From NCBI GenBank assembly GCA_000496475.1, contig AYMW01000003.1:94475-158474 (forward strand): 64,000 nt of DNA, written 5' to 3'. This document shows positions 3,010 through 47,766 of this stretch, in pieces (within the stretch, counting starts at the first letter, position 1; each line of letters opens with the position of its first letter). Position numbers and translations under genes: made by a program. The DNA comes from Betaproteobacteria bacterium MOLA814 (lineage in GTDB: Bacteria; Pseudomonadota; Gammaproteobacteria; Burkholderiales; Burkholderiaceae_C). The notes under the pieces were generated by a model. The model saw only the letters and a list, made by a program, of their open reading frames with translations, ran no database searches and was not told the DNA's origin.

Positions 3010-3600
3010 TCAGTCGTAGTCTGGCAGCCAGTCCACGGTAATGCGTTTGTCCACCAAACTGACACCATCGATGTATTGGCCTACAAAAGGAATAAGGCGT
3101 TGCAGCTTGGGGTCGTCGGTGGGAGAGGTGGTCACGCACAGCACCGCCTGCGGACCAGTTGACAGCATTTCTTGCACCTGTCCCAACACCTCGCCTTGGC
3201 GGTTGACCACCTCGCAACCTATCAGGTCTACCCAGTAGAACTCGTCATCAGAAGTCAAGGGGGCAAATTCGGAGCGGTTAACCCACACCTCAGCACCCTT
3301 GAGCGAATGGACGTCGTCTCTGTCATCGATGCCATCGAACTGCACCACCAAACCACCAGCGTGCGTTTTGCATTGCGCAACAGCAACGCGCACTGCGCCT
3401 ACAAAACCTGTAAAGGTTTTGGCATACTGGCCAACTGGTGCGAGCAGGTACCATGTTTTTGCCGACAACAACACATCAGCGTCGCTGCTAAAGGGCTGCA
3501 ACTTGCTCCAACCTTTGACGCCCCAAGCGCCTTGCAAGCGGCCCAAAGCGATGCCATCGGTTGGTATATCAGCGGCAATTAAAGCAGTAGGCAAAGTCAT
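3010..3600 (-). CDS. rimM: 16S rRNA processing protein RimM
   Basis: 196 residues. RimM binds ribosomal protein S19 and helps maturation of the 30S head. The N-terminal beta-barrel domain carries IALGRLQGAWGVKGWSKLQP (about residues 18-37), the family signature of G-x-hydrophobic-GxWGVKG. The PRC-barrel domain follows with DEFYWVDLIGCEVVNRQGEV and ends in LIPFVGQYIDGVSLVDKRI then VDWLPDYD. Position between rpsP and trmD matches the universal order. About 99 bases separate it from rpsP, and this gap holds a terminator-like hairpin that may reduce rimM expression relative to rpsP. Confidence 0.96.
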   Translation of the reverse strand: MTLPTALIAADIPTDGIALGRLQGAWGVKGWSKLQPFSSDADVLLSAKTWYLLAPVGQYAKTFTGFVGAVRVAVAQCKTHAGGLVVQFDGIDDRDDVHSLKGAEVWVNRSEFAPLTSDDEFYWVDLIGCEVVNRQGEVLGQVQEMLSTGPQAVLCVTTSPTDDPKLQRLIPFVGQYIDGVSLVDKRITVDWLPDYD

Positions 3601-41663: not shown

Positions 41664-41957
41664 ACCTGCATTGATGTGCCATTCTTGACACAAGCAAACA
41701 ACCGACTCACTCTGACCTGTTTCGCAAGTGGTTTGCGAAACAGGTCCGGTTACACATCGAGCCAGCGCGTCGAACAGACCTGCCTCAACACGCCAGGCCT
41801 TGTCAGCTTGTTGGCGCTCGTCAGACGCCCTCTCTTCAACCACTAACACAGCGTTGCTGTGGCGATTCGCCACTGTTTGCACGCTGATGCAACCCGTGTA
41901 GGCCCGGGTTTGCGCCAGTGCACCAGCCAGCATCTGTTGTACCGAGAGTGACGCCAA
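41577..41957 (-). pseudogene. Remnant of an antibiotic-biosynthesis-monooxygenase (ABM) domain gene
   Basis: The minus frame has an ABM-like core of about 65 residues: MLAGALAQTRAYTGCISVQT (about residues 9-28), then NAVLVVEERASDERQQADK and AWRVEAGLFDALA. This matches the barrel's helix 1, strand 2 and the W-R-x-E-x-GL-D-x-LA end seen in ABM proteins. The first beta strand (about 12-15 residues) is missing: a TAA lies just upstream in frame and no good start exists. After GPVSQ the frame runs through a 14-bp hairpin and into sequence antisense to the NIPSNAP gene. I read this as a degraded gene. Its 5' part has become the promoter region of the DUF3303 gene. Confidence 0.55.
41714..41746. repeat. 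14-bp perfect inverted repeat (hairpin)
   Basis: GACCTGTTTCGCAA (41714-41727) is complementary to TTGCGAAACAGGTC (41733-41746) across a 5-base GTGGT loop. It lies 50 bases after the NIPSNAP stop and where ABM homology ends on the other strand. There is no T run on either side, so a simple intrinsic terminator is unlikely. Confidence 0.8.
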
Positions 41958-41996
41958 GCTTTTACCAATTTTTTACCAATGGGCTTCAACCATAGT
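41951..41996 (+). promoter_or_regulatory. SARP-like promoter: three heptads at 11-bp spacing (DUF3303-GYD operon)
   Basis: ACGCCAA (41951), TTACCAA (41962) and TTACCAA (41973) begin exactly 11 bp apart, each heptad separated by 4 bases. CATAGT (41991-41996), a -10-like hexamer, follows the last heptad after 11 bases. The DUF3303 gene starts 40 bases further on. The layout matches three other promoters in this region. Confidence 0.7.
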
Positions 41997-42036
41997 GAAG
42001 CTGGATATTGATATTGGCTTTTTATAAGGAATGTTT

Positions 42037-42312
42037 ATGTTGTTTACTTTTTCTTGGACCCATACACCTGCCGCGCGTGACGTAACCATCAAGCAATTCA
42101 TGGCAACTGGGGGGATGCCACCCGCGGGTATAGACATGCTGTCGCGCTACCACAATGTGGACGGGACAGGTGGATTTGCGATTTGTCAATCAACCGATGC
42201 CGCCGCCTTGGCTTCGTGGGCACTTGACTGGAACGGACTGATAGACATAAAAATTGTTCCCATCATGGACGACGAAACGATCTCGGGTGTTTTGGGACCA
42301 AGGTTTGCGTAA
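42037..42312 (+). CDS. DUF3303-family protein (dimeric alpha/beta barrel)
   Basis: 91 residues from the ATG at 42037, 6 bases after AAGGA; an in-frame ATG at 42031 is too close to that ribosome site. Family signatures are MLFTFSWTHTPAARDVTIKQ, FMATGGMPPAGIDMLSRYHN and GGFAICQSTDAAALASWALD then WNGLIDIKIVPIMDDE. DUF3303 proteins are small ferredoxin-like barrels of unknown function, related in fold to NIPSNAP, GYD and DUF1330 proteins. It is the first gene of a two-gene unit with the GYD gene 41 bases downstream. A triple-heptad promoter precedes it. Confidence 0.85.
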   Translation: MLFTFSWTHTPAARDVTIKQFMATGGMPPAGIDMLSRYHNVDGTGGFAICQSTDAAALASWALDWNGLIDIKIVPIMDDETISGVLGPRFA

Positions 42313-42353
42313 CACCGCTTTTTATTTTTGTACCTATTTTTGAGGATAAGACC

Positions 42354-42686
42354 ATGGCCGTTTACATGACAAAAGCCAAGTATTCAACCCAAGCTTTCCA
42401 GGGAATGCTCGCTAAACCCAGCGACAGAGAGCAAGCCACACGCGCGTTATTTGACGCCTTAGGTGTGTCCATTCACCACCTTTACTTTGAGATTTCAACC
42501 GGGAGTGTGATTGTCATTTCAGAAGGCACCGCCGACCAAATGGCGTGCTTGGGCATGGTCACGGGGGCAAGCGGTGCTTTCGACTCCATAGATGCCACTG
42601 AGCTGATCAGTATGAACGCCATGAGCGCTGCCATGGGCACGGCACAACGCATTGCGCAGGCATACGCTGCTCCAAATAAATCGTAA
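42354..42686 (+). CDS. GYD-domain-like protein
   Basis: 110 residues. MAVYMTKAKYSTQAFQGML (family: sense an 'x-x-W/Y-T-x-x-G' opening), REQATRALFDALGVSIHHLY and FEISTGSVIVISEGTADQMA then DATELISMNAMSAAM match the GYD fold of about 95 residues (a stress-responsive alpha/beta-barrel family), with the usual GEYD replaced by STGS. Function is unknown in bacteria. GAGGATAAG precedes the ATG. It is cotranscribed with the DUF3303 gene upstream. Confidence 0.75.
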   Translation: MAVYMTKAKYSTQAFQGMLAKPSDREQATRALFDALGVSIHHLYFEISTGSVIVISEGTADQMACLGMVTGASGAFDSIDATELISMNAMSAAMGTAQRIAQAYAAPNKS

Positions 42687-42883
42687 TGCAACATTAGGGC
42701 ATGCAGCCAAGCGCTGCATGTTCCAGGCTTGAGCAAGATCCGAAAGACCTTCGCTCAGGCTGTTTGATGTGGCTGCTTCAAACCGCTGGCCAAGCGTGAG
42801 AGGACGGCCTCACAGTCTCAAGCCTGTCAGTGGATTTTTAATCTGTGCCGCCCTTCGCCACAGCGTCAGACAGGTATGGTTGC

Positions 42884-43279
42884 TTAGAACCAAGCAGCTG
42901 AATCGGCTTGTCCACTCGAGCGCTGCATCCAAGAAAAGTACCACAGGCCATCTATCTTTTCAAAAAGAGCTGTGACGGTAAAAACGTCATCGTTTGGCTC
43001 GCCCTTGTAAGTGAACGTCGCAACTTGCGTAAAGGCCGCAAAGGCACGCTCGCCGTATACATCTAGTCGGTGAACCTTGCTCAAGCCGATAGACTGCATG
43101 ACCAATTCACCTGATGCGAACATATGTGCAAAGCCTGCCGCATCCAGTGGGTTCCCGCTCGGGCGGATGAAACGAAAATCAGGTGTCGTGCGGGTCTTAA
43201 CAACGTCGACATTCTTTCCGACAGAACTAAAATTTTTGATGAGCGCTTGGATATCATCTTCATTAATTGCTGAACTCAT
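42884..43279 (-). CDS. NTF2-like (SnoaL/DUF4440-type) protein
   Basis: 131 residues. The cone-shaped NTF2-like fold is suggested by an N-terminal helix DIQALIKNFSSVGKNVDVVK, the strand-helix pattern FRFIRPSGNPLDAAGFAHMF and the C-terminal sheet AFAAFTQVATFTYKGEPNDD then VFTVTALFEKIDGLWYFSWM. Such proteins include ketosteroid-isomerase-like enzymes and small ligand-binding proteins. No catalytic Asp/His set can be assigned, so enzymatic activity is uncertain. It is codirectional with the DABB gene at 43813 and about 219 bases downstream of it; the two may share a transcript. Confidence 0.75.
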   Translation of the reverse strand: MSSAINEDDIQALIKNFSSVGKNVDVVKTRTTPDFRFIRPSGNPLDAAGFAHMFASGELVMQSIGLSKVHRLDVYGERAFAAFTQVATFTYKGEPNDDVFTVTALFEKIDGLWYFSWMQRSSGQADSAAWF

Positions 43280-43482
43280 TGTGGATTTCCTTGATGACGC
43301 GTGAGAACGTATACGCTTTGAATAAAAAAATCAGCCGTGCACAGGCTTGCGTGTGTCAAACTTTATTCTAGAAGTAAGCGGCTCGTGGATTGTTACAAAC
43401 GCTGATTCTTGAACCTTGGCGCAGCATGCGCCATGTTGACACCACAGATCGTCACAAACTCAGCAGACCGCATACCTTTTTA

Positions 43483-43503
43483 CGTTATGCGTTATGCGTT
43501 ATG
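43483..43503. repeat. Short tandem repeat, CGTTATG x3
   Basis: Three perfect copies of the 7-mer CGTTATG run from 43483 to 43503. They overlap the stop codon (TAA on the minus strand, 43499-43501) of the DABB gene at 43499-43813. Confidence 0.85.
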
Positions 43504-43813
43504 CCAAAGACACTTCACGCGCAACATTGCTGCGAACCCAACTGCTCAGACCCGATGCAACGCCTTTGGCGTTCCAGGCTGCAAAAGCTGGATCGGCATA
43601 TATTTTTTCCATGCATGCACCATAGGCTGAGAAACTCTCAAAGCTGGCTGTAAAAACCATATTGCCCACTTCTCCAGCCGATACCGCCCACAGCGACACA
43701 TCCGCACCATGACTTCTCCAGATTGCAACAGACTCTTTAACCAACGCCATCAACTTCATCATGTCAGCACCTGGGTTTGGCTTGAAAACGACTTGCGAAA
43801 CGATACGTTGCAT
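43499..43813 (-). CDS. Small dimeric alpha/beta-barrel protein, NIPSNAP/EthD-like
   Basis: 104 residues from the ATG at 43813 (MQRIVSQVVFKPNPGADMMK), which has AGGAG 7 bases upstream; the open frame starts 23 codons earlier. It has the barrel pattern of strand, helix (LMALVKESVAIWRSHGADVS), two strands (LWAVSAGEVGNMVFTASFES) and helix (AYGACMEKIYADPAFAAWNA). It resembles the first half of the two-domain protein at 46003 (shared GADV/GARV, GE-G, SFES/SFDT and a DPAF/DPLF turn), so the two are probably paralogs. Function unknown. A triple-heptad promoter on the minus strand lies about 100 bases upstream. Confidence 0.75.
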   Translation of the reverse strand: MQRIVSQVVFKPNPGADMMKLMALVKESVAIWRSHGADVSLWAVSAGEVGNMVFTASFESFSAYGACMEKIYADPAFAAWNAKGVASGLSSWVRSNVAREVSLA

Positions 43814-43894
43814 ATAGGACTCCTGAACAATTGAGGATCGATGACCGAAGGGACAACTTGAATCACGCTGAAAAACCAACATGATTCAACTCCA

Positions 43895-43940
43895 ATTATT
43901 GTGTGCAACCATTGCCAAAACATTGCCAAAACATTGGTGC
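43895..43940 (-). promoter_or_regulatory. SARP-like promoter on the minus strand (DABB gene at 43813)
   Basis: Reading the minus strand: GCACCAA (43940-43934), TTGGCAA (43929-43923) and TTGGCAA (43918-43912) begin exactly 11 bp apart. After 11 bases comes AATAAT (43900-43895), a 5-of-6 match to the -10 consensus. The ATG is at 43813. Triad order and spacing mirror the plus-strand promoters. Confidence 0.7.
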
Positions 43941-44210
43941 TTGACGCTGTAGCGGAAAGACAGCGTGGTCCATCAATCGGCACGAATTCTCACAACGCCT
44001 GTTGACGCAACACGCTTCGTTTTCTGTCAGATAACTGCCCACTGCTGGCGCTAGAACCGACACGGCATGACCAACGGTGTGTTGCCGCTGGCCTAGAGGC
44101 TAGGGGTGGAATTGGGACCCGTGGATGTCGAAATTGTGAACCTCACCAAGCTGGCTTTTTTTGAACCAATCAAGCCCGCACCACGCAGCACCACAGCAAG
44201 CTGCGGACGT

Positions 44211-44255
44211 TCACCAATCTATTGCCAATGTTTTGGAAGTCACGGTGCTTAGCAT
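44211..44255 (+). promoter_or_regulatory. SARP-like promoter: three heptads at 11-bp spacing (cupin gene)
   Basis: TCACCAA (44211), TTGCCAA (44222) and the weaker TTGGAAG (44233) begin 11 bp apart. TAGCAT (44250-44255) follows the last after 10 bases as a possible -10 element. The cupin ATG is 30 bases downstream. The third heptad matches the consensus at only four of seven positions. Confidence 0.6.
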
Positions 44256-44284
44256 TGACATCACCTCAACCCAAGGACATAACG

Positions 44285-44659
44285 ATGACAACACTTGTAA
44301 AAAAATCTTTTGATCACCCGGACGAATTGAAGACGCCAGACAAAGTCCACGCCGCGACCATCAAATTCAATGGCGCATCCATTTCAAAGCTGACCTTGCA
44401 ACCGGGTTGGAAGTGGTCAGAAATCATGAAACCCCTGGTGGGTGGCCACAGTTGCCAAGCACCCCATGTGGGTACGCTCATCAAAGGGGTTTTGCACGTT
44501 GTTTCTGACGACGGTTCAGAAATCACGGTCCATGCGGGTGATGCTTACGTATTCGCGCCGGGTCACGATGCATGGGTCGTGGGCGATGAAGAGGTGATTG
44601 CCTACGAATTCAACACCGAAGCCAAAGACTTTGCCGTTTGGAAAAATTACAAAGCATAA
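44285..44659 (+). CDS. Small cupin-domain protein
   Basis: 124 residues from the ATG at 44285 (MTTLVKKSFDHPDELKTPDK); the frame is open 21 codons earlier without support. A single cupin barrel: the first metal-binding motif region is SKLTLQPGWKWSEIMKPLVG then GHSCQAPHVGTLIKGVLHVV, with His residues at GHS and APH, and the second motif is GDAYVFAPGHDAWVVGDEEV with a His in PGHDAW. Cupins of this type are often metal-dependent dioxygenases or sensors of small molecules; activity cannot be fixed from sequence. It is preceded by its own heptad promoter and faces the BTAD regulator tail to tail. Confidence 0.88.
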   Translation: MTTLVKKSFDHPDELKTPDKVHAATIKFNGASISKLTLQPGWKWSEIMKPLVGGHSCQAPHVGTLIKGVLHVVSDDGSEITVHAGDAYVFAPGHDAWVVGDEEVIAYEFNTEAKDFAVWKNYKA

Positions 44660-44749
44660 AAGCATTGCAAACCAACCAGCGGCGCAATCACAGAGCGGCA
44701 TGAACGAGATCAGTGCCCTTCACTGACCTGTTGTTCATGCAAGCGTGTC

Positions 44750-45514
44750 CTATCCAGCGATGGCCTGGTTGTGTAACAAGCGCCTATGCACCTCCTGCAA
44801 GCCTTCGCTGGGCGCCACCCCCAGCTCTTCGCTCAACAGGGTGCGCATCGCCTCATACAGATGCAAGGCCTCGGCCCGATTGCCTCGGCTGGCTAGGATT
44901 TTCAGCAACAAGGCACAGCTGCTTTCCCTGTAAGGGCTGGCGGCCATGGCCCGCCTTGCTGCGCGTTCAGCGGTCTGCAACTCCAGACCTCCTAAATGCA
45001 GTCCACTGGCGGCCAGACATTCATTGGCGCGCAATTGTGCATCCATCAATTTGGCGCGAACCTCTTCTACCCATGGGCCATCAAAGCCGGGCATGAAAGC
45101 TCTTGCGCTGATGTGCGCAACGGACTGGGAGGAAGCCCAGGCGCCAGCCCAGTCTTGTTGATGGACAGCCGATTCGGCACGGTGCAAACAACTCCAAACA
45201 ACATCTAAATCCACCCAAGTGGCAGGGGGAAGCATCAAGCGTACGTCTTGTTTGCCAGTTAAATAGTCTTTGCTCAACGCTTTTCGCAACTTCGCCAAAA
45301 GTGCCGCCAACGCGGTGTCTGGGTCATTTGGAGGTGCCCCATTCCACAGCAGCTTGACCATGTCGGAACGGGTCACGCTGCGGCCTTGCTGGCTCGCTAA
45401 AAATGCAAACAGTAAACGGCCTTGCCTGCCGGGCAAGTCATGTTCCAGGCGCTCGCCCATGATCCGAACCGTCAAGGCCCCACACAGATGTATCCGGGAT
45501 TCACAATCGCGCAT
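44750..45514 (-). CDS. SARP-type transcriptional regulator (winged helix + BTAD domain)
   Basis: 254 residues. The N-terminal OmpR-like winged helix is RIHLCGALTVRIMGERLEHD then LPGRQGRLLFAFLASQQGRS, VTRSDMVKLLWNGAPPNDPD and TALAALLAKLRKALSKDYLT (to about residue 90). The bacterial transcriptional activation domain (about 100-250) consists of TPR-like helices and ends LYEAMRTLLSEELGVAPSEG then LQEVHRRLL. This is the architecture of actinomycete SARP activators (AfsR, ActII-ORF4), rare in Proteobacteria. In SARPs it binds 7-bp direct repeats at 11-bp spacing near -35, which are found at four promoters here. It is divergent from the DUF1059 gene, and a TTATCAT inverted repeat lies between. Confidence 0.9.
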   Translation of the reverse strand: MRDCESRIHLCGALTVRIMGERLEHDLPGRQGRLLFAFLASQQGRSVTRSDMVKLLWNGAPPNDPDTALAALLAKLRKALSKDYLTGKQDVRLMLPPATWVDLDVVWSCLHRAESAVHQQDWAGAWASSQSVAHISARAFMPGFDGPWVEEVRAKLMDAQLRANECLAASGLHLGGLELQTAERAARRAMAASPYRESSCALLLKILASRGNRAEALHLYEAMRTLLSEELGVAPSEGLQEVHRRLLHNQAIAG

Positions 45515-45521
45515 TAGGTTA

Positions 45522-45554
45522 TTATCATTTTTATGGTCGTAAGCCCCATGATAA
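45522..45554. promoter_or_regulatory. Inverted repeat between the BTAD regulator and DUF1059 genes
   Basis: TTATCAT (45522-45528) and ATGATAA (45548-45554) are perfect 7-bp arms separated by 19 bases, in the 79-base gap between the divergent BTAD and DUF1059 genes. Its centre-to-centre spacing is 26 bp. It could be an operator for a dimeric regulator, possibly unrelated to the heptads. Confidence 0.5.
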
Positions 45555-45593
45555 GCGGATTGCGCGATGGTCTAACTTTTAAAGGGAACAGCG

Positions 45594-45755
45594 ATGAGCA
45601 AGATAATCAATTGCGATTGTGGCCTAGTGATTCAGGCACAAAGCGACGATGCCCTCGTTGAGGCAACGATGAAGCACGTCGAGCAAGACCACCCTGAGCT
45701 GGTTGGAAAAATCGGCCATGAAGACATTTTGAATTGGGCCGAAGAAGCCAGTTGA
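45594..45755 (+). CDS. DUF1059-family small zinc-finger-like protein
   Basis: 53 residues. The ATG at 45594 has AAAGGGAA 7-14 bases upstream. The sequence opens MSKIINCDCGLVIQAQ and continues DDALVEATMKHVEQDHPELV then GHEDILNWAEEAS. The CDC pair with the two His of KHVEQDH fits the DUF1059 family, which likely binds zinc with a CxC...HxxxxH set. Members are common next to small barrel proteins and cupins, but no function is known. Transcription is divergent from the BTAD regulator. An 8-bp hairpin (45762-45779) without a T run follows the stop. Confidence 0.85.
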   Translation: MSKIINCDCGLVIQAQSDDALVEATMKHVEQDHPELVGKIGHEDILNWAEEAS

Positions 45756-45761
45756 TGACCT

Positions 45762-45779
45762 AGAAAGCTTGAGCTTTCT
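45762..45779 (+). other. Short hairpin after the DUF1059 gene
   Basis: AGAAAGCT (45762-45769) pairs with AGCTTTCT (45772-45779) across a TG loop, 7 bases after the DUF1059 stop. It lacks a T run, so termination would be weak. Confidence 0.5.
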
Positions 45780-45800
45780 GCTGCGACCGGGTAGTCCATG

Positions 45801-45834
45801 GGTCTAGCTTGGTCTGGCTTGGTTTAGCTTGGTG
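45801..45834. repeat. 10-bp tandem repeat (GGTYTRGCTT), about 3.4 copies
   Basis: GGTCTAGCTT, GGTCTGGCTT and GGTTTAGCTT follow each other without gaps, and the fourth copy breaks down after GGTG. The period of one helical turn puts each copy on the same face of the DNA. It lies in the promoter-containing gap between DUF1059 and the two-domain DABB gene. Confidence 0.65.
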
Positions 45835-45910
45835 TTGGGCGCATTGCATGTTGGCCAAGGTTTGACAGGCGCCAGTGGCTGGCTGCACGGCTATGCGGCT
45901 GGCTTGGACC

Positions 45911-45956
45911 TCACCAAGTTTTTGCCAATCATTTGCCAAGGCGGTTGCACTCAAAT
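45911..45956 (+). promoter_or_regulatory. SARP-like promoter: three heptads at 11-bp spacing (DABB-DUF1330 operon)
   Basis: TCACCAA (45911), TTGCCAA (45922) and TTGCCAA (45933) begin exactly 11 bp apart. TCAAAT (45951-45956), a 4-of-6 -10-like hexamer, follows after 11 bases. The first gene starts at 46003. This triad is the clearest of the four. Confidence 0.75.
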
Positions 45957-46002: not shown

Positions 46003-46611
46003 ATGACCATCATCTCCAGAAGAATCGCCACGCCCATATCGGGCAAATCACAATTGGCACACCAACGCATCAGCGCCTTGGGCGACGCCATGACCCGGGC
46101 AGGTGCCAGGGTGCGCATTGCGCGCGTGTTGTTTGGTGAAGGCGCGGGCAGTGTTCACGTCTACGGAAGCTTTGACACCTTCAAGGACGGTACCCAAACC
46201 AGCGAAAAAATGGCCAAAGACCCCCTGTTCATTCAATTGCGCGCTGACGCCGATGCAGACAGGGCCGCCACTTGGCAAGGCCCAGAGGTTTTCCGAACTG
46301 TATACGGTGAGCCCAGCAAGTACCCTGTCATCGTGCAACGTGAATACCAAGTCGCACGGGCGCATTTGAAAGAAGCCCTTGCCTTGCTTCCCGAGATTGA
46401 GGCCTTGAGCCCGGCCACGCCCATGATGGCCGTTGTTCCTGTATTTGCGGGCGACTTGGCTCGCCTGTTGGTCGTGTACTACGCCCAGTCTCTGGACGAC
46501 ATGAGCGATTACTTGGACACCACTGGCAGCACCAAAGAGTTTCAAGCCCTGGTGTTGCGCGCGCATGCATTTGGCGAACTCAAACAGTCCCGTGTTTTGC
46601 AATTGGTCTAA
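46003..46611 (+). CDS. Two-domain dimeric alpha/beta-barrel protein
   Basis: 202 residues. The first half (about 1-105) has the barrel pattern KSQLAHQRISALGDAMTRAG then GSVHVYGSFDTFKDGTQTSE and AKDPLFIQLR, and resembles the protein at 43499-43813. The second half (about 108-202) repeats it with VIVQREYQVARAHLKEALAL and RLLVVYYAQSLDDMSDYL. A single chain with two barrels can form a fixed pseudo-dimer, as in fused EthD/monooxygenase-like proteins. No catalytic residues can be named. GAAGGAG precedes the ATG with an 11-base gap. The DUF1330 gene starts 119 bases downstream. Confidence 0.65.
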   Translation: MTIISRRIATPISGKSQLAHQRISALGDAMTRAGARVRIARVLFGEGAGSVHVYGSFDTFKDGTQTSEKMAKDPLFIQLRADADADRAATWQGPEVFRTVYGEPSKYPVIVQREYQVARAHLKEALALLPEIEALSPATPMMAVVPVFAGDLARLLVVYYAQSLDDMSDYLDTTGSTKEFQALVLRAHAFGELKQSRVLQLV

Positions 46612-47213: not shown

Positions 47214-47589
47214 GGTTCTGTCGCAATAAGCGAAACAGACAATCCAACGCATGCTTGATTTCCGCAAAAGTTCAATCAACAGCGCCCTGCGCAAGGTCCT
47301 CAAACGACTCCACTATCCGCTGGAAGTGATGCTCACATGCGTGCGCTGGTATGTGGCCTATCCGCTGAGTCTGCGTCACATTGAAGAGATGATGCGGGAA
47401 CGCGGTATTTTCGTGGATCACGCCACAGTGCACCGCTGGGCGATCAAGATGGTGCCGGTGCTGGCCGCCGTATTTCGTCGGCGCCAGCACCCCGTTGGCA
47501 AGCGTTGGCGGATGGACGAGACCTACATCAAAGTGGCCGGCCAGTGGAAGTACCTTTACCGGGTGGTTGACCGCGCTGGCGATACGGTG
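47214..47589 (+). mobile_element. Left end of an IS6-family element, truncated on the right
   Basis: GGTTCTGTCGCAATAAG (47214-47230) matches the IS6-family terminal repeat type (GGxxCTGTxGCAAA). The transposase start at 47251 is 37 bases inside, as usual for the family. Transposase homology ends at about 47589 (residue 113) and no right inverted repeat is present, so about two thirds of the element is missing. It joins directly to an HsdS C-terminal sequence. Confidence 0.7.
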
Positions 47590-47766
47590 GTAATACCAGC
47601 CCATGAGGAACAGATCGCAATTGCCAATGTTCTCTCAGACATAGACGCCGAGCTTTCTGAGCTCGAGACTCTCCGGGATAAAACCCGCAACATCAAACAA
47701 GCCATGATGCAGGAGCTGCTCACTGGCAAAACGCGTCTGATTGCCAAGGAGGGAAGCCATGTCTGA
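47251..47766 (+). CDS. Chimeric ORF: IS6 transposase N-terminus fused to HsdS C-terminus
   Basis: 171 codons in one open frame. Residues 1-113 are an IS6-family transposase N-terminus ([20 protein letters not shown], then [12 protein letters not shown] and [20 protein letters not shown], with the first Asp of the DDE triad in MDET). Residues 114-171 are the C-terminus of a type I specificity subunit ([20 protein letters not shown], then [20 protein letters not shown]). Neither half is functional by itself as drawn: the transposase lacks two catalytic acidic residues, and the HsdS part lacks both target-recognition domains. The last 8 bases (ATGTCTGA) overlap the hsdR start. Whether it is expressed is unknown, but it may still drive hsdR translation. 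Confidence 0.8.
47590..47766 (+). pseudogene. hsdS: hsdS C-terminal remnant (type I restriction specificity subunit)
   Basis: About 58 codons. The sequence [17 protein letters not shown] corresponds to the second conserved helix region of HsdS, and [12 protein letters not shown] is its common ending. Normal HsdS proteins are about 400-450 residues, so nearly 90% has been lost together with the upstream hsdM. It is in frame with the transposase fragment. Confidence 0.8.

Follow-up and report, generated by a model that had tools for sequence, protein, structure and literature searches.

Within the window analyzed here, a 64-kb stretch of DNA from the genome of a freshwater betaproteobacterium, four promoters around the gene for a small BTAD protein each carry a triad of heptameric repeats at exact 11-bp steps. 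We consider it highly probable that this protein acts as a SARP activator on the triads, recruiting polymerase to promoters that have only a -10 element, and that its regulon is the local gene cluster. SARP-type regulators are known above all as activators of antibiotic genes in soil actinomycetes. A sequence-only reading of the window had proposed a SARP regulon in a betaproteobacterium, and this proposal is supported by the retention of the triads at related loci, by a further triad in a genome from another Burkholderiales family, and by the sequence and predicted fold of the protein.

Results

Triad 1 (ACGCCAA-N4-TTACCAA-N4-TTACCAA; positions 41951 to 41979, plus strand) stands before a gene for a DUF3303 protein, triad 2 (GCACCAA-N4-TTGGCAA-N4-TTGGCAA; 43912 to 43940, minus strand) before a small gene at 43499 to 43813, triad 3 (TCACCAA-N4-TTGCCAA-N4-TTGGAAG; 44211 to 44239, plus strand), in which the third heptad is degenerate, before a cupin gene, and triad 4 (TCACCAA-N4-TTGCCAA-N4-TTGCCAA; 45911 to 45939, plus strand) before a gene at 46003 to 46611. 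By offset scoring, a -10-like hexamer follows 11 bp past triad 1 (CATAGT, 41991 to 41996, plus strand), triad 2 (AATAAT, 43895 to 43900, minus strand), and triad 4 (TCAAAT, 45951 to 45956, plus strand) and 10 bp past triad 3 (TAGCAT, 44250 to 44255, plus strand). Re-reading of the sequence recovered all 12 heptads, with a periodicity of exactly 11 bp, and all four hexamers at the positions first reported for them. The operator consensus here is CRCCAA-N4-TTGSCAA-N4-TTGSCAA, and heptameric direct repeats at 11-bp steps are also present at related loci in three other genomes (L009, L010, and L022, described below).

The regularity of the triads around the BTAD gene is real. At up to three mismatches, the pattern put forward in the sequence-only reading has four matches in the window versus 0.07 expected from dinucleotide shuffles, and none of 100 such shuffles reached four; at up to two mismatches, its only matches in the whole 2.86-Mb genome are three of these window sites. 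Site 1, with three mismatches, is one of nine genome matches at that level. Five of the other eight were examined (all but C2:62383, C2:260808, and C3:226053), and each lies inside an ORF of more than 200 aa; these five weaker matches were rejected as further regulon members elsewhere in the genome. Because a pattern built from the sites must find them, leave-one-promoter-out and other-genome matrices were added. Each left-out site ranks second to fourth in the 64 kb under the former (scores of 23.9 to 30.1; highest unrelated site, 18.7), and a matrix built from the L010 and L022 loci alone places exactly the four sites at ranks 1 to 4 in the window. Shuffles, genome search, and independent matrices all agree, and a chance origin of the triads was rejected on these grounds. 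The broader notion that the triads are functionless 11-bp tandem repeats, produced by chance or by slippage, has almost no claim on our belief: two of the four arrays do contain perfect tandem 11-mers, but triads 3 and 4 agree in their heptads and differ in their spacers, triad 4 of Limnohabitans sp. Bal53 has a changed second spacer (tcat to ccct) between unchanged heptads 2 and 3, the -10 element keeps a fixed offset, and a further instance of the site is present in L022.

A TATAAT matrix was scored at each of 40 offsets (0 to 39) past the third heptad of seven distinct promoters, and offset 11 gave a mean log-odds score of +3.3, the sole positive value, the next best being -1.6. The same 11-bp spacing occurs in L010 and L022, and only the cupin promoter differs by 1 bp. 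A -35 hexamer sought at a spacing of 16 to 19 bp matched at best two of six positions at any promoter, as expected of promoters that depend on an activator. The repeats take the place of the -35 element, with a gap to the -10 element that is fixed at 10 to 11 bp as the heptads are delimited here; at classical SARP promoters the last heptamer is separated from the -10 element by 8 bp, a difference that counts against our preferred explanation. With the -10-like hexamer placed at -12 to -7, the heptads occupy -52 to -46, -41 to -35, and -30 to -24; the 11-bp units of heptads 2 and 3 then lie within 1 bp of those in the afs box of AfsR (-40 to -19), and heptads 1 and 2 form a 22-bp box centered at -41.5.

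Conservation is uneven among the heptads. None of the seven distinct promoters departs from the C-N-CCAA of heptad 1 (CRCCAA) or from the CAA that ends heptad 2, whereas only three keep the CAA of heptad 3. The better conservation of heptads 1 and 2 suggests that they are the high-affinity core, near -41.5, and, taken with the two-heptad elements of a paralogue cluster (see below), favors an accessory role for heptad 3. The same regulator might instead bind with another stoichiometry, as a SARP dimer on heptads 1 and 2 only, with heptad 3 decayed or of low affinity. We regard this alternative as a serious but lesser possibility: besides the conservation just described, elements in the paralogue cluster have no more than two heptads, and -41.5 is the usual center for a class II activator, but three of the four window promoters have an intact heptad 3, its 11-bp gap to the -10 element is held, and the position of heptads 2 and 3 is the one that AfsR uses (PMC10936776).

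The predicted target of triad 1 is the DUF3303 gene (42031 to 42312, plus strand; Pfam PF11746, E value of 1.4e-24), which likely shares its transcript with a gene for a GYD-domain protein (42354 to 42686, plus strand; PF08734, E value of 7e-9). Triads 2, 3, and 4 would control, respectively, the small gene on the minus strand (43499 to 43813; its start was set by comparison with L009), the cupin gene (44285 to 44659, plus strand), and a gene for a 202-aa protein (46003 to 46611, plus strand), for which a single-sequence structure model was useless (pLDDT of 37). Among the gene labels initially assigned, BTAD, DUF3303, and GYD hold above Pfam cutoffs and the cupin matches below its cutoff (Cupin_2, E value of 1e-4), whereas the label DABB, applied to the other two predicted targets, lacks Pfam support: the 43499-to-43813 product matches only NIPSNAP/DUF6854 at an E value of about 0.04, and the 202-aa protein matches nothing. 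Related loci add DsrE and DUF1059 proteins to the predicted target set. A DUF1059 gene is present in the window (45594 to 45755, plus strand; PF06348, E value of 2.2e-4), divergent from the regulator gene, and its promoter has no triad, although its counterpart in L022 has one. The window also holds two short tandem repeats, GGTCTAGCTT (3.3 copies at 45801 to 45833, between the DUF1059 gene and triad 4) and CGTTATG (3.1 copies at 43483 to 43504, at the end of the 43499-to-43813 gene), as well as an apparently truncated ORF for an IS240-type transposase (47251 to 47766) directly before type I restriction-like genes.

The regulator itself (44750 to 45514, minus strand) is a protein of 254 aa in which an N-terminal OmpR-like DNA-binding domain is followed by a BTA domain, the domain order of a SARP, as indicated by Pfam (BTAD, E value of 8.4e-19; Trans_reg_C, E value of 7.8e-5, under the gathering cutoff) and by a full-length structure model; it has no sensor domain. 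Its best sequence match in the PDB is AfsR (E value of 1.9e-14), with EmbR also among the best solved relatives. The predicted structure (pLDDT of 88) aligns to AfsR in a transcription initiation complex with a Z score of 20.6 over 245 residues (28% identity) and to EmbR with a Z score of 19.8; the next matches are unrelated TPR proteins (Z score of 13.7, approximately 140 to 150 residues aligned). By sequence and predicted fold, the BTAD protein is a SARP, with a match that extends over its full length.

We mapped the contact residues of AfsR (PMC10936776) through the 28%-identity alignment and infer from it that most of the conserved backbone contacts are kept (Q48, W74, P79, R94, and K95 as Q31, W57, P62, R77, and K78) and that both base contacts are changed, T88 to A71 (S in the paralogue) and R92 to K75 (K in all five close family members), substitutions that fit with a different heptad. 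Most of the BTA surface that contacts sigma region 4 and the alpha-CTD appears to be retained, with R240, E246, L247, and L263 of AfsR found as R224, E230, L231, and L247 and V249 as V233 (I in L022). The DNA-binding-domain residues that AfsR needs for activation through the beta-flap, R59, D71, and E76, are not conserved, which counts against our explanation. The opposite direction of regulation, in which the protein binds the triads and represses by blocking polymerase at the -35 position, strikes us as quite improbable; the sites do cover the -35 region, and the literature has an example of a SARP with a negative action, Atr32 (PMC10972967), but promoters with no -35 element would leave a repressor little to repress, and the residues for contact with sigma and the alpha-CTD are those just described as kept.

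Related loci keep the triads together with the regulator. In Limnohabitans sp. Bal53 (L009) the regulator is 91% identical, and all three triads covered by the contig are retained, before the cupin gene, the DABB-like gene (L009:2900-2928, the counterpart of triad 2), and the 202-aa gene, with heptads identical at 20 to 21 of 21 positions. Going by the 91% regulator match, the host of the window probably belongs to Limnohabitans or is closely related to it. In MAG G125 (L010; regulator 85% identical) triads are retained before the cupin gene, whose product is 91% identical, and before a DsrE gene (Pfam E value of 2.6e-12), the latter triad (L010:1718-1746) being related to triad 2. Triad 3 is thereby conserved in both genomes, and in both the flanking DNA drifts while the triads do not; orthologous clusters devoid of heptads, which the sequence-only reading had named as evidence that would speak against it, are not what these two loci show. 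L010 corresponds to JABBAS010000048.1, apparently from G125, which is placed in the same genus as the genome of the window. In G576 (L022), from another Burkholderiales family, the regulator is 48% identical and has a divergent DUF1059 gene, at the promoter of which lies the triad GCGCCAA-GGTT-TCACCAA-GGTT-TTGCTCA, followed 11 bp on by CATAAT. This triad was first spotted by eye and afterwards scored with a matrix trained without L022, under which it reached 22.9, the next site in 18 kb scoring 4.4 and being itself an overlapping register.

Could the triads be operators of another regulator encoded elsewhere, with the BTAD gene a bystander? The regulator's own promoter has no triad, but triads accompany the regulator at four loci, L022 included; genus members without the regulator have no match at up to one mismatch, triads are absent where homologues of the 202-aa protein are encoded away from the regulator, and repeats spaced by 11 bp that extend over the -35 position are the hallmark of SARP sites. 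We therefore judge a bystander role unlikely and infer that the triads are the targets of the BTAD protein. Cupin homologues, in the family sample, occur only beside the regulator. Also counting against our explanation is the small number of close family members identified for the regulator, only five, including three close relatives, which leaves L022 and part of L010 as the independent evolutionary replication. More orthologues were sought in samples of the order, class, and phylum and in a viral collection, which yielded only distant BTAD proteins besides that of G576; among the 20 plasmid matches listed, the proteins are actinomycete and approximately 24 to 31% identical. A Nonomuraea BTAD protein lying approximately 1.1 kb past a cupin homologue was set aside as coincidental, with other genes intervening.

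The Bal53 contig ends in 131-bp perfect inverted copies (L009:1-131 and 3467-3597), which by inspection resemble the ends of an IS3-like transposase gene; the module may therefore be mobile, flanked by insertion sequences in inverted orientation.

The genome of the window encodes a second small SARP, 50% identical to the first, on contig 2 (G000; L016:8038-10500), accompanied by DUF1059-like, GYD, and other small genes. Full triads were sought in this paralogue cluster and none was found, which counts against our explanation. The cluster instead has four two-heptad elements (NTGCCNA-N4-TTNNNCA), all in its two divergent intergenic regions and each oriented toward a gene or the remnant of one; the pattern, which was picked after inspection of the cluster, occurs nowhere else in the 19 kb and twice in the 64-kb window. 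These elements are suggestive only, possibly representing a diverged operator of the paralogue. One of them lies upstream of a SnoaL/DUF6841-like ORF (L016:5950-6567, minus strand) whose opening codons look like those of a DsrE gene (MKLLVHITAGTEHSTKAM), as though a deletion had left a DsrE promoter and start in place and joined them to a different gene.

Discussion

In the mechanism that we propose, the small SARP-type protein would line up along the triads on a single face of the DNA, with one protomer per 11-bp unit, and the bound regulator would bring housekeeping RNA polymerase to promoters equipped with a -10 element but no usable -35 element, the regulon being a local cluster of small proteins. 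Heptads 1 and 2 would form the core, and heptad 3 would either take a cooperatively held third protomer or tolerate variation.

AfsR of Streptomyces coelicolor resembles this system in its two-domain fold, its 11-bp repeat units, its suboptimal -10 element, and its lack of a good -35 element. The regulator described here, however, is a small SARP without NOD or TPR domains in a betaproteobacterial host, its heptads (CRCCAA and TTGSCAA) differ from the TTCAGC of AfsR, and an extra heptad is present upstream. In AfsR, mutating the downstream repeat hurts most (PMC10936776), an emphasis opposite to the core of heptads 1 and 2 proposed here. PimR, a SARP-LAL regulator of Streptomyces natalensis, has an operator of three heptamers with 4-bp spacers and a consensus, CGGCAAG, that resembles our TTGGCAA (PMC5930380), but the principal PimR operator is located upstream of the -35 box, whereas heptads 2 and 3 here cover the -35 region, and PimR has a large C-terminal half and a single target gene, pimM. 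DnrI and ActII-ORF4 are likewise small SARPs with some three-heptamer sites, and overlap with the -35 region is common to SARP sites in general (PMC10972967); these two control Streptomyces antibiotic clusters, in contrast to the small cupin-, GYD-, and DUF3303-type proteins of this betaproteobacterium. EmbR of Mycobacterium tuberculosis shares the ODB-BTA fold but has an FHA domain and only approximately 20% identity. We thus regard the regulator as a SARP by its predicted fold and operator architecture, with an apparently changed specificity and host phylum.

A 2024 review called SARPs a genus-specific family (PMC10972967), and in a 2020 survey proteobacterial matches to the SARP profile mostly lacked the HTH or BTAD domain (PMC7040171). 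Our literature search, with most subscription journals outside it, returned no proteobacterial SARP regulon and no SARP with defined operators outside Actinobacteria. Sites of three heptamers, with 4-bp spacers in PimR, were already known; what is new are predicted SARP operators outside Actinobacteria, with a changed consensus, substituted AfsR base-contact residues, and a degenerate third heptad. We see about an even chance that a wider interpretation holds, in which SARP activation, with repeats in place of the -35 element and sigma region 4 on the activator, works with proteobacterial polymerase, and in which a Burkholderiales lineage of shifted specificity uses a three-heptad operator, with an upstream-pair core at the class II position, to control small non-antibiotic proteins in a possibly mobile module. 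If our reading is correct, the small size of this proteobacterial SARP and its four clean operators would make it possible to test how SARPs read heptads and whether they can act in the absence of RbpA, CarD, or other actinobacterial factors, perhaps with RNA polymerase from E. coli; the system would also provide a first entry point to a cluster of DUF proteins.
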